60,737 nucleotides of DNA. It comes from Alphaproteobacteria bacterium (lineage in GTDB: Bacteria; Pseudomonadota; Alphaproteobacteria; Rhizobiales; Beijerinckiaceae). The position numbers and the translations under genes are program-made. The stretch is from the NCBI GenBank assembly GCA_016869595.1, contig VGDT01000016.1, forward strand, positions 1 through 60,737. Direction: 5' to 3'. This document shows positions 11,355 through 16,187 of this stretch, piece after piece; positions within the stretch are counted from its first letter, which is position 1, and every line of letters begins with the position of its first letter. The notes under the pieces were generated by a model. That model saw nothing but the letters and a program-made list of their open reading frames with translations, was not told the origin of the DNA and did not search any database.

Positions 11355-12590
<1,236 letters not shown>

Positions 12591-12673
12591 TTAGATCGAG
12601 TAACGGCTTGCGTCTCTTTTTCGAACGGAAATCTTAAAGAAATAAAAAGGTTAGCAAAGTCTTGCCAAGAACC

Positions 12674-13285
12674 TCACGCCTCGCGCACTGGCGTAAAGCT
12701 CGCACGATGCGCGGGGCTCGCGCCGTGCAGCGCCAGCGCTTCGAGGTGATGCTGCACGGCATAGCCGACATTGGTCTCGAAACCATATTGCGGATAATGC
12801 GCGGCAAGACGGCGCATCATGGCGTCGCGCGCGACCTTGGCGACGATCGAGGCTGCGGCGATCGAGAGCGCTGTCGCATCGCCCTTGATGATCAACTGGC
12901 AGGGACAATTGACCGGCGGCCGGTCATTGCCGTCGACGAGAAGATAGGCCGGCGCGTGGGAAAGGCCGGCGACGGCGCGCGCCATCGCCGCGAGCGAGGC
13001 CTGCCGAATATTAATGCGATCGATTTCGGCGGCGGTGACGAAAGCGACGCTGACGGCGAGCGCGCTGGCCATGATGCGTTCGAAAGCTTCTTCGCGCTGC
13101 GCCTGGTTCAGAGCCTTGGAATCATCGAGGCCGCGCGGCCGCCGCTCGGGATCGAGAATCACCGCCGCCGCGGCGACCGGTCCCGCGAGCGGCCCGCGAC
13201 CGACTTCGTCGACGCCGGCGATCGGCCATACGCCTTTCCGGCGCAATTGGGCCTCCAGCCGAAAACTGACCCCTTTGGCCGTCAC
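12674..13285 (-). CDS. rnhB: ribonuclease HII
   Basis: This 203-residue enzyme removes ribonucleotides misincorporated in DNA and RNA of hybrids. It begins the conserved core with '[15 protein letters not shown]' (D26, E27), continues with 'LLVDGND' (D118) and '[19 protein letters not shown]', and ends with the family's aromatic and His segment ('[13 protein letters not shown]'). All catalytic acidic positions are visible. It lies upstream of ccrM on the same strand with a gap of about 150 bp, in which I see no other gene. Confidence 0.95.
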
Positions 13286-13467: not shown

Positions 13468-14622
13468 CTAAAAAAGGCTAAGCTGCTGCGGCGCGCGGCG
13501 GGGCGGCTCGAACAGATCCGTTCGCAATCTTGTTTTCTGCGTAAAGCCCAGTCTCGCGGCGGCGACCTCGAAACGCCGGCCGATCATCCAGGCGTAGGGG
13601 CCTTCGCCTTTCATGCGGGCGCCAAAGGCGGAATCATAAAGCTTGCCGTCTCGCGTCGAACGCACCAGCGCGAGGGCATGGCGGGCCCTGTCAGGGAAAT
13701 GCGCCACCAGCCATTCGGTGAAGAGATCGCGCAATTCGAGCGGCAGGCGCAGCAGAACATAGCCCGCCTCACGCGCGCCGGCGGCATGCGCCCGCGTCAA
13801 AATCCGCTCGATCTCGTCGTCGTTGATCGAAGGAATGATCGGCGCCGTCATCACCGCGGTCGGCACGCCAGCGGCGCTGAGCTTCTCTATGGTCTCGATC
13901 CGCAGCTCCGGAGTCGCGGCGCGCGGCTCCATGAGGCGCGCGAGCTTGCGATCGAGCGTCGTGACCGAGATCGCCACCTTCGCGAGGCCCTTCGCCGCCA
14001 TCGGCGCGAGGAGATCAAGGTCGCGTAACACGAGCGCCGACTTCGTCACGATGCCGACCGGATGATTGGCCCGCGAGAGCGCCTCTAGGATCGAGCGCAT
14101 GACGCGATGGATCTTCTCGGCCGGTTGATAAGGGTCGGTGTTGGTGCCGATGGCGATCGTCTTCGGCACATAGCCGGGGGCCGATAATTCACGTTCAAGA
14201 CGCTGCGCTGCGCCTTCTTTGACAAAGATCTCCGTCTCGAAATCAAGGCCTGGGGAAAAGCCCATATAAGCGTGCGTCGGCCGCGCGAAACAATAGACGC
14301 AGCCATGCTCGCAGCCGCGGTAGGGATTGATCGAGCGGTCGAAGGAAATATCGGGCGAATCGTTCCTAGTGATGATGGTGCGCGGCTTCTCGACGTGGAA
14401 ATTGGTCTTGAGCGCCTCGAGGCTCTCCAGCGACCCCCAGCCGTCGTCCGCTTCTTCACGCGTTTCCTTCTCGAACCGGCCGCTACGCTTTGACAGCGCG
14501 CCCCGCCCGCGCCGGCGCTCCGCCTCGACGATCGCCCCCGCGTCGATCCGCGCGCCTTTCATTTCCGCTACTGATTGAGCCGCATGTCCCATATCCGCAA
14601 CCTCTGCCGCAGCCGCGAGCAT
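13468..14622 (-). CDS. PA0069-family radical SAM protein (SplB-like) with C-terminal clamp motif
   Basis: This 384-residue protein has the radical SAM cluster motif C104-x3-C108-x2-C111 in 'YRGCEHGCVYCFARPTH'. The following 'IAIGTNTDPYQPAEK' and 'VGIVTKSALVLRDLDLL' segments are typical of the PA0069/COG1533 family, relatives of spore photoproduct lyase. Its substrate is unknown. The last five residues are QLSLF, the consensus pentapeptide by which polymerases and repair proteins bind the beta sliding clamp. An exact alphaproteobacterial SOS box lies 30 bp upstream of ATG 14622. An internal start at 14562 would fit relatives better and leaves these conclusions unchanged. A role in DNA damage repair or tolerance is inference. 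Confidence 0.9.
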   Translation of the reverse strand: MLAAAAEVADMGHAAQSVAEMKGARIDAGAIVEAERRRGRGALSKRSGRFEKETREEADDGWGSLESLEALKTNFHVEKPRTIITRNDSPDISFDRSINPYRGCEHGCVYCFARPTHAYMGFSPGLDFETEIFVKEGAAQRLERELSAPGYVPKTIAIGTNTDPYQPAEKIHRVMRSILEALSRANHPVGIVTKSALVLRDLDLLAPMAAKGLAKVAISVTTLDRKLARLMEPRAATPELRIETIEKLSAAGVPTAVMTAPIIPSINDDEIERILTRAHAAGAREAGYVLLRLPLELRDLFTEWLVAHFPDRARHALALVRSTRDGKLYDSAFGARMKGEGPYAWMIGRRFEVAAARLGFTQKTRLRTDLFEPPRRAPQQLSLF

Positions 14623-14651
14623 CGCCGTCTCGACCGCCAGAACCTACATGA

Positions 14652-14666
14652 GAACATATAGAGAAC
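14652..14666 (-). promoter_or_regulatory. LexA (SOS) box upstream of the radical SAM gene
   Basis: GAAC-atataga-GAAC, read on the gene's strand as GTTC-tctatat-GTTC, is an exact match to the alphaproteobacterial LexA site GTTC-N7-GTTC with the usual AT-rich spacer. A third GAAC lies at 14640-14643. The box is 30 bp from the ATG and may overlap a -10 element TATATG, a fitting position for repression. Confidence 0.8.
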
Positions 14667-14753: not shown

Positions 14754-16187
14754 TCAGCGCACCAGAATATTCCTGAACTGCCAGGGATCGCTTTCGTCGA
14801 TGTCTTCCGGAAAGAGCCCCGGACGGCCTTCGAGCGGCGTCCAATCCGTATAATAGCCCTTCACCGGCCCGAGATAAGGCAACTGCACGTCGAGGCAGCG
14901 CTTGTAGTCGACCTCGTCCGCCTCGACGATACCGGCCTCTGGATTCTCCAGCGCCCAGACCATGCCGGCGAGCGCGGCTGAGGAGACCTGAAGGCCGGTG
15001 GCGTTTTGATAGGGCGCGAGATCGCGCGTCTCCTCGATCGAGAGCTGCGAGCCGTACCAATAAGCGTTTTTCGCGTGGCCGTAGACCAGCACGCCGAGTT
15101 CGTCGATGCCGTCGACGATTTCATGCTCGTCGAGAATCTGCCAGCTCGCCTGCATCTTGCCGGCGGCACCGAATATTTCATGCAGAGAGAGAACGGCGTC
15201 GTCAGCGGGATGATAGGCATAATGGCAGGTTGGGCGGTAAATCACCTGTCCCGAACCATTGCGCAGCGTCAGATAATCGGCGATCGAGATCGACTCATTA
15301 TGCGTGACGAGAAAGCCATATTGGGCGCCGGGCGTCGGACACCATGAGCGCACGCGCGTATTGGCGCCGGGCGAGAGCAGATAGATCGCCGCGCCACAGC
15401 CGGTCGGATGCGTGCGGCCAATGTCGGGCAGCGCCTTTTCATGCGTCCCCCAGCCGAGTTCGGCGGGCTGCATGCCCTCGGAGACGAAGCCTTCGACCGA
15501 CCAGGTATTGACGAAGACGTTGCGCGGCTTCGGATCGCGTGCGCGTTGCGTATCGCGTTCGGCGATGTGAATGCCCTTGACGCCGAGCCTTTGGGCGAGC
15601 GCGCCCCACTCGGCGCGCGTTTCCGGCTCCTTGCCGAGCGCGCCCGTATCGCGCGCAATATTCACAAGCGCCTGCTTGACGAACCAGGACACCATGCCCG
15701 GATTGGCGCCGACGCAGGAGACAGCCGTCGATCCGCCCGGATTCTTCCGACGCTCTTCGAGCACCGTTTCGCGCAGCGCGTAATTGGTGCGCGCTTCATT
15801 GCCCATGCTCTTGTCGAAGTAGAAGCCCGGCCATGGCTCCACCACCGTGTCTACACAGAGCGCGTTCAGTTCGCGCGCGAGCTTGATGATCGCGAGAGAA
15901 GAAACGTCGACGGAGAGATTGACGATAAAGCCCTGGCCTTCGCCTTTCGTCAGCAGCGGCGTCAAAATCTCCCGGTAGTTGTCGGGCTTGAGGCTTGCTT
16001 TCAAAAAGGCGATGCCGCGTTCGTCCAGCAAACGACGATGCGTATCCACAGGATCGATGACGGTGAAGCGCGACTTGTCGAAATCGAAATGGCGCTCGAT
16101 CAGCGGCAAAATGCCTCGGCCAATGGAGCCGAAGCCGATCAGTACAATCGGACCAGTGATTTTGCCATGGTGAGGCCAAGTCGACAT
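14754..16187 (-). CDS. hss: homospermidine synthase
   Basis: This 477-residue NAD-dependent enzyme makes sym-homospermidine from two putrescines, or from putrescine and spermidine. Homospermidine is a major polyamine in many alphaproteobacteria. It has the N-terminal dinucleotide fold 'VLIGFGSIGRGILPLI' and family segments such as 'EPWPGFYFDK', 'GANPGMVSWFVKQAL' and 'NTWSVEGFVSEGMQPAELGWG' (the last in two adjoining parts). Length equals that of characterised bacterial enzymes. It is a single-gene unit with its own terminator, divergent from the CHAD gene. Confidence 0.95.
   Translation of the reverse strand: MSTWPHHGKITGPIVLIGFGSIGRGILPLIERHFDFDKSRFTVIDPVDTHRRLLDERGIAFLKASLKPDNYREILTPLLTKGEGQGFIVNLSVDVSSLAIIKLARELNALCVDTVVEPWPGFYFDKSMGNEARTNYALRETVLEERRKNPGGSTAVSCVGANPGMVSWFVKQALVNIARDTGALGKEPETRAEWGALAQRLGVKGIHIAERDTQRARDPKPRNVFVNTWSVEGFVSEGMQPAELGWGTHEKALPDIGRTHPTGCGAAIYLLSPGANTRVRSWCPTPGAQYGFLVTHNESISIADYLTLRNGSGQVIYRPTCHYAYHPADDAVLSLHEIFGAAGKMQASWQILDEHEIVDGIDELGVLVYGHAKNAYWYGSQLSIEETRDLAPYQNATGLQVSSAALAGMVWALENPEAGIVEADEVDYKRCLDVQLPYLGPVKGYYTDWTPLEGRPGLFPEDIDESDPWQFRNILVR

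Follow-up and report, generated by a model that had tools for sequence, protein, structure and literature searches.

A LexA-box-preceded radical SAM gene of the PA0069 family encodes a protein with a conserved C-terminal match to the beta-clamp-binding motif

The window analysed here, a stretch of 60,737 nucleotides of alphaproteobacterial DNA (Rhizobiales, Beijerinckiaceae; assembly GCA_016869595.1, contig VGDT01000016.1), contains on its minus strand the gene for a radical SAM protein of 384 amino acids, P0001. The features of this locus are as follows:

13468..14622, minus strand: gene for the PA0069-family radical SAM protein (P0001, 384 aa), identified as an open reading frame with a match to profile NF033668
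14652..14666, minus strand: predicted LexA box GTTCTCTATATGTTC, 29 nt 5′ of the ATG of the radical SAM gene, its pattern conserved in homologues
13471..13485, minus strand: codons of the C-terminal match to the clamp-binding motif, QLSLF (residues 380-384), from translation and alignment
14290..14313, minus strand: CX3CX2C radical SAM cluster motif (C104, C108, C111), containing the sole cysteines of P0001
14704..14727, minus strand: terminator-like hairpin and T run, setting the radical SAM gene apart from the upstream gene
12674..13285, minus strand: rnhB (RNase HII), the next gene downstream on the same strand, identified by profile match

The open reading frame begins with an ATG at 14622 and ends with a stop codon at 13468-13470. 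The hairpin, in which 8 G-C pairs are followed by ATTTTTTTTT, lies between the LexA box and an upstream gene for a saccharopine-dehydrogenase-like protein (14754-16187, minus strand). A sequence-only reading of the window had described a GTTC-N7-GTTC box ahead of the gene, QLSLF as the last five residues of the protein and an upstream terminator, and all three are present at the locus, the last as a terminator-like hairpin. The radical SAM gene is followed on its strand by rnhB and then by ccrM, which encodes a cell-cycle DNA methyltransferase, and this order is conserved; rnhB and ccrM occupy 11355-13285 of the window (minus strand), and about 180 bp separate the radical SAM gene from rnhB. 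The source of the window is a Methylocystis-like alphaproteobacterium. The closest of 80 alphaproteobacterial homologues is that of Methylocystis sp. B8, with a protein identity of 97%.

P0001 matches the profile of the PA0069 family (NF033668, rSAM_PA0069) with 547.8 bits against a cut-off of 360 (E 9e-165). Because this match spans profile positions 1-348 of 348, the C-terminal tail belongs to the profile, and P0001 is a full member of the family, tail included, with no structural difference. NF033668 is a model of the type hypoth_equivalog; its description gives no function, and the clamp motif appears in neither its name nor its description. A match to the radical SAM superfamily (PF04055, E 1e-19) includes the CX3CX2C motif in the domain. 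The core of P0001 is also homologous to that of the Rv2578c family (NF038135; E 2e-66) and to that of radical SAM mobile pair protein B (TIGR04470; E 5e-25). The Rv2578c family is a separate one, to which P0001 does not belong (224 bits against a cut-off of 430), and its model of 317 positions ends before the tail.

Conservation was assessed in two sets of homologues, which may overlap in species and for which tail and box counts are kept separate. Set 1 consists of 80 named alphaproteobacterial homologues with identities of 63-97% over the best segment. Set 2 was drawn from 398 evenly sampled Pseudomonadota genomes, among which 171 carry a PA0069-family gene above the NF033668 cut-off, and consists of 170 homologues above this cut-off, 110 of them from alphaproteobacteria (102 + 8) and 60 from other Pseudomonadota (47 + 13), that is, 149 loci plus 21 lower-scoring ones. 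Left out of set 2 were the gene of the window itself and the 6 of 177 matching genomes that have sub-cut-off matches only (G001 and five with E values of 1e-4 to 7e-4). A LexA box was counted where the perfect pattern lay in the 350 bp preceding the match start, and a tail where a widened clamp motif, allowing any residue at position 2, fell inside the last 15 residues. Residue frequencies are taken from an alignment of 229 rows that omits homologue L143, a set 2 member whose protein ends in QLSLF and whose gene has the box. In one genome (G344; L277 and L281) the gene copy seems broken, being interrupted by an in-frame stop and divided into fragments that lie on two contigs.

A lone GTTCN7GTTC proves little, since the bare pattern is not enriched in the window's own genome (73 sites, versus 91 for the reversed control pattern), and conservation was therefore tested in the two homologue sets. 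Genome-wide enrichment was discarded as support, and conservation alone is counted here. By our arithmetic, the chance of finding the pattern in one 350-bp stretch is about 1%; it is present upstream of 79 of the 80 close alphaproteobacterial homologues of set 1 and of 101 of the 110 alphaproteobacterial members of set 2 (94/102 + 7/8). For other spacings between the two GTTC elements (3-12), the counts are 0-9 of 80 and 0-4 of 102 in the respective alphaproteobacterial loci. The gamma- and betaproteobacterial LexA box is CTGTN8ACAG, and this pattern lies upstream of 37 of the 60 non-alphaproteobacterial members of set 2 (30/47 + 7/13), with any other spacing in at most 2 of 47. Perfect boxes appeared in shuffled upstream sequences in 1/80, 1/102 and 2/47 cases. 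The middle of the box is biased too, position 11 being T in 96% of the perfect alphaproteobacterial boxes of set 2. In 9/110 alphaproteobacterial and 23/60 other homologues, the 350 bp ahead of the match start contain no perfect box; among the 17 of 47 non-alphaproteobacterial loci without a perfect CTGTN8ACAG, one has it at a single mismatch and the others at two or three.

The window's own genome has GTTCN7GTTC, in the orientation opposite to the gene, upstream of lexA (C73:2345), of recA (C30:1994) and of a putative imuA-imuB-dnaE2 operon (C21:24830), in which imuA and imuB are named solely by their position ahead of dnaE2. The radical SAM gene shows what is expected of a LexA-regulon member, a class-specific promoter box conserved among orthologues, and we predict that in the strain of the window it is almost certainly under SOS (LexA) control. 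At 14 of the 80 close loci (within L011-L090; for example L027, L028, L030, L034 and L040) there are two GTTCN7GTTC boxes 15-20 bp apart, which suggests double LexA operators. On a secondary replicon of Sphingomonas (L243, 2486-6038), the gene is preceded by two GTTCN7GTTC boxes, one of them 25 bp upstream, and a gene for the alpha subunit of DNA polymerase III is located nearby.

The clamp-binding motif is defined, in the available text of a review, as Q-phi-x-[L/M]-[F/L] or Q-phi-x-[L/M]-x-[F/L], where phi is aliphatic (PMC11139829), and the terminal QLSLF of P0001 fits the first form. The widened motif is found in the tails of 80/80 homologues of set 1 and 164/170 of set 2 (99/102 + 47/47 + 18/21). 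Elsewhere in these proteins it is found in 0.2-0.6% of 15-residue stretches, and shuffling the tails leaves it in 8-12% of them. In its strict form, Q[LMIV]x[LM][FL], it occurs in the tails of 80/80 proteins of set 1, 79/102 of the alphaproteobacterial proteins of set 2 and 26/47 of the others. The six proteins of set 2 without the widened motif in their last 15 residues have the near-forms QLSLW, QMHLW and QMRFML or, in three cases, longer or altered ends. Across the 229 aligned rows, Q380 is invariant and L383 is present in 228. At position 384, 167 rows have F and 52 have L; at position 381, L (156 rows) is commoner than M (38) and G (23). Glycine at this second motif position, which the published definition excludes, occurs in 15/47 non-alphaproteobacterial and 8/101 alphaproteobacterial proteins. 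The linker varies, with 6-27 residues between F371 and Q380; ahead of it (residues 366-374), L366, F371 and P374 are highly conserved, F371 being present in 228/229 rows, and make up a second conserved element of the tail. In the window's own genome, the putative ImuB frame does not match the clamp-motif pattern, and the DnaE2 frame matches it once, internally (QMNML), so that these frames provide no positive control. The conserved motif makes it very likely that the P0001 tail docks on the beta sliding clamp (DnaN).

Similar tails occur in the Rv2578c family, which was sampled through four actinobacterial proteins from a plasmid collection, all above the NF038135 cut-off and all with clamp-like C-termini. 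The actinobacterial SOS box is GAACN4GTTC. Upstream of these four genes it is perfect in two, one base off in one and present with N5 spacing in one:

Streptomyces sp. BHT-5-2: tail QLTLL; GAACATGTGTTC at -57
Nonomuraea: tail QLRLL; GAACTGCTGTTC at -22
Tsukamurella: tail QESLF; GAACGAGATGTTC (N5 spacing) at -23
Arthrobacter: tail QEPLF; CGAACATACATTCG at -81, counted from the start of the match

The Tsukamurella and Arthrobacter tails have E at position 2 and so fall outside the strict motif definition. Published Streptomyces LexA boxes, as given in the available text, resemble GAACN4GTTC (PMC9380542). A Gemmatirosa relative that scores below both family cut-offs ends in QLSLGI and has no recognised box, and the motif is absent from the ends of five more distant relatives, from Paenibacillus (L250), Runella (L251), two viral sequences (L244, L245) and the one example of mobile pair protein B (L242). 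Since the four Rv2578c relatives have both features and the five distant relatives lack the tail, the combination of motif and SOS control appears to be characteristic of the PA0069/Rv2578c branch, the actinobacterial sample being small. The conservation of pentapeptide and LexA box on which the sequence-only reading had staked its proposal thus extends across Pseudomonadota and to four proteins of Actinomycetota. Among the distant relatives, L242 (1345-3364, a Lachnospira plasmid) comprises the genes of radical SAM mobile pair A/B alongside one for a MarR regulator, and L251 (1387-3501, a conjugative Runella plasmid) has the radical SAM gene immediately 5′ of a UvrD-like helicase gene. A relative of P0001 was confirmed in none of the viral contigs, where a Streptomyces query gave two distant ones; phage records gave 10 distant matches, none of which spans 80% of the query.

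The linkage to rnhB, downstream and on the same strand, is seen in alphaproteobacteria only, at 70/80 loci of set 1 and 38/102 further alphaproteobacterial loci (108/182 over both). Linkage to ccrM is found at 52/80 close loci and at 7/102 further ones, whose flanks extend over only about 1.5 kb. The neighbours of 149 sampled loci were clustered, and for ten of the clusters a single member was compared with Pfam. The families recognised were RNase HII, glycosyltransferase, B12-binding, homocysteine S-methyltransferase, molybdopterin-binding, ATP synthase B, AsnC-type regulator and carbonic anhydrase; two of the ten clusters had no match, and RNase HII was the only DNA-repair family among the ten. 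The biggest neighbour cluster of the 47 non-alphaproteobacterial loci covers 6 loci. A function deduced from neighbours was rejected, as no neighbour implicates a lesion and no substrate follows. In some alphaproteobacteria (for example L131, 2709-3422, and L221, 2547-3590), B12-binding and homocysteine S-methyltransferase genes flank the gene (12 loci each), possibly as a link to methionine and SAM supply, or as mere neighbourhood.

PA0069 itself is presumably a member of the Pseudomonas LexA regulon, and no paper connecting PA0069 with LexA was found in the open-licence literature. LexA control of a gene called 'splB' has been predicted in alpha- and betaproteobacteria and, in the available text, is read as photoreactivation (Sanchez-Alberola 2012, PMC3323433). 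This 'splB' is probably the same gene as that of the PA0069 family, although the accessible part of that paper offers no locus tag to match. It likewise has predicted LexA boxes, and the clamp motif is not mentioned in the sections available; these sections describe the trait as not seen in Gammaproteobacteria, whereas a homologue from the gammaproteobacterium Aeromonas has a box in our sample. According to the excerpts available, the radical SAM gene vnz_31145 of Streptomyces venezuelae has a LexA ChIP-seq peak and is induced 19.97-fold by mitomycin C (PMC9380542); its likeness to P0001 lies in the radical SAM annotation and SOS control, not in a sequence comparison. As far as the respective extracts go, a 'DNA repair photolyase' of Mycobacterium tuberculosis, whose gene is not named there, is induced by mitomycin C in a RecA-dependent manner (PMC8151990), and a Bacteroidetes study refers to a SplB radical SAM protein as SOS-regulated in several species (PMC8565304). 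SOS control of such genes was therefore already known or predicted, to judge from the text available (PMC3323433, PMC9380542), and is not new here. No description of the clamp motif in PA0069/Rv2578c radical SAM proteins was found among the titles and opening lines of abstracts listed in a search of open-licence literature only, which is weak evidence of novelty.

Searches of solved structures gave no match with the single sequence of P0001, and spore photoproduct lyase only at E 0.63 with an alignment of 47 rows; with a mixed alignment of both families and outgroups, the lyase was matched at E 2e-6. A structure model of P0001 was built from 47 alignment rows. Its mean pLDDT of 74.6 is only fair: most of the core (130-320) exceeds 85, residues 1-70 and 111-130 are low (the latter below 40), and in the tail only the last four residues are low (48), with residues 371-380 averaging 72. 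The six best PDB matches of the model are all entries for spore photoproduct lyase (E 6e-9 to 8e-8, TM about 0.5, 295-299 columns), and other radical SAM enzymes match at E 1e-6 or worse. Spore photoproduct lyase (TIGR04070; PDB 4FHC and relatives) is thus the best fold match of the P0001 model; the two share radical SAM chemistry, and the substrate of the lyase is DNA. The lyase depends on a fourth cysteine, C140/C141, as hydrogen donor, and C140 mutants of it are among the PDB matches. P0001 has no such cysteine, its only cysteines being the three of the cluster. A conserved fourth cysteine was not found in the family either, the best other alignment column reaching 23% (weighted) and any cysteine within residues 140-166 occurring in 47/229 rows.

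Taken together, we consider P0001 most likely to be an SOS-induced, clamp-recruited radical SAM enzyme that acts on damaged DNA. In the proposed mechanism, LexA would repress the radical SAM gene, and after DNA damage RecA-promoted cleavage of LexA would free the promoter. The cell would then make a radical SAM enzyme that has a lyase-like fold and whose C-terminal tail is attached through a variable linker. By binding in the hydrophobic cleft of the sliding clamp, QLSLF would recruit the enzyme to stalled replication forks or to gaps left behind such forks. At these sites, reduction of SAM by the [4Fe-4S] cluster would yield a 5′-deoxyadenosyl radical, which might abstract hydrogen from a damaged nucleotide, so that the lesion would be reversed or rearranged without excision. 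The basis of this scheme differs by step: repression has strong comparative evidence, docking has the conserved motif, and the DNA substrate has fold and context. From the latter two, the enzyme probably acts on DNA; that it also reverses a lesion is, in our judgement, evenly balanced.

The fold raises the alternative that P0001 is orthologous to spore photoproduct lyase and either repairs 5-thyminyl-5,6-dihydrothymine or acts as the main photolyase. The lyase is its nearest solved fold and, with the mixed alignment, a distant profile match, and orthology was assumed for 'splB' in the available text of PMC3323433 and in PMC3925955. Against this, P0001 scores 11.4 bits with the lyase model TIGR04070, whose cut-off is 400, and neither the protein nor its family has the extra catalytic cysteine. 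By these sequence criteria, P0001 is not a spore photoproduct lyase, which makes the alternative improbable; the designation PA0069/SplB-type in the sequence-only reading therefore stands for PA0069 and holds for SplB only as a distant relationship. Lacking the fourth cysteine of the lyase, the PA0069 family must finish its reaction differently. The tail, too, could be read otherwise, as a C-terminal degradation signal or a docking peptide for another partner. SOS proteins are often unstable, and the motif forms the very C-terminus in 193/229 rows; however, 36/229 rows carry 1 to 75 residues beyond it and keep both Q and L, so a free C-terminus is not required. An invariant Q followed by a mostly hydrophobic residue, any residue, L, and F or L is the clamp-motif pattern, and a short conserved peptide on a variable linker that tolerates extra residues behind it argues for a docking motif and against a degradation signal that needs a free end. 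We thus regard a degradation signal or other docking peptide as improbable as well.

A role in SOS translesion synthesis, as an accessory of ImuA-ImuB-DnaE2 at the clamp that modifies, for instance, DNA or a mutasome protein, would have LexA control and clamp-motif logic in common with the reading that we favour. SplB-like genes have been linked to ImuB-C genes, according to the accessible text of one study (PMC3765255), and DnaE2 (presence judged by a best E of 0) also occurs in 41 of the 60 non-alphaproteobacterial carriers of the gene. The other 19 carriers are without it and 24 further non-alphaproteobacterial genomes of the sample have DnaE2 without the gene, so that, with kinship uncorrected in these counts, the co-occurrence is suggestive, not decisive; in the genome of the window, moreover, dnaE2 is on another contig. 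We consider such an accessory role unlikely. Linkage to RNase HII and co-occurrence with DnaE2 fit a post-replicative role and single out no lesion. Many radical SAM enzymes act on substrates other than DNA, and the substrate might likewise be RNA, a cofactor or a protein, with SOS control reflecting a secondary need. Clamp docking and SOS control jointly point to DNA instead, and the closest fold acts on DNA, which leaves a substrate of this other kind unlikely too.

The reading of P0001 as a damage-induced enzyme that is recruited to the clamp, as proposed from the sequence at the outset, is hence supported in the main, with the corrections that SOS control had been predicted before and that the protein is not a spore photoproduct lyase. 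The new elements, as far as we found, are the near-universal clamp motif of the family, its presence in the Rv2578c sister family and the case against spore photoproduct lyase. More tentatively, the PA0069 and Rv2578c families might together form an ancient class of SOS-induced, replisome-docked direct-reversal enzymes, which would travel with the clamp and remove a covalent DNA lesion by abstracting hydrogen, and in which the hydrogen-return step would be unlike that of spore photoproduct lyase.

The gene is present in about two fifths of the sampled Pseudomonadota (171/398) and has relatives in Actinomycetota, yet the family is without an assigned function. A conserved clamp hook and SOS control recast this 'hypothetical photolyase' as a sharp hypothesis as to where and when the enzyme would act and which residues would be involved. 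It would correct the 'splB/photolyase' label and could reveal a lesion whose repair in vegetative cells has so far escaped notice, making the family a strong candidate for a novel form of direct repair that would operate at the replication fork. If such a replisome-docked class exists, it would add a further direct-reversal chemistry to those of photolyase, alkyltransferase, AlkB and spore photoproduct lyase, and its members would, as far as we are aware, be the first radical SAM enzymes recognised as working on the clamp.
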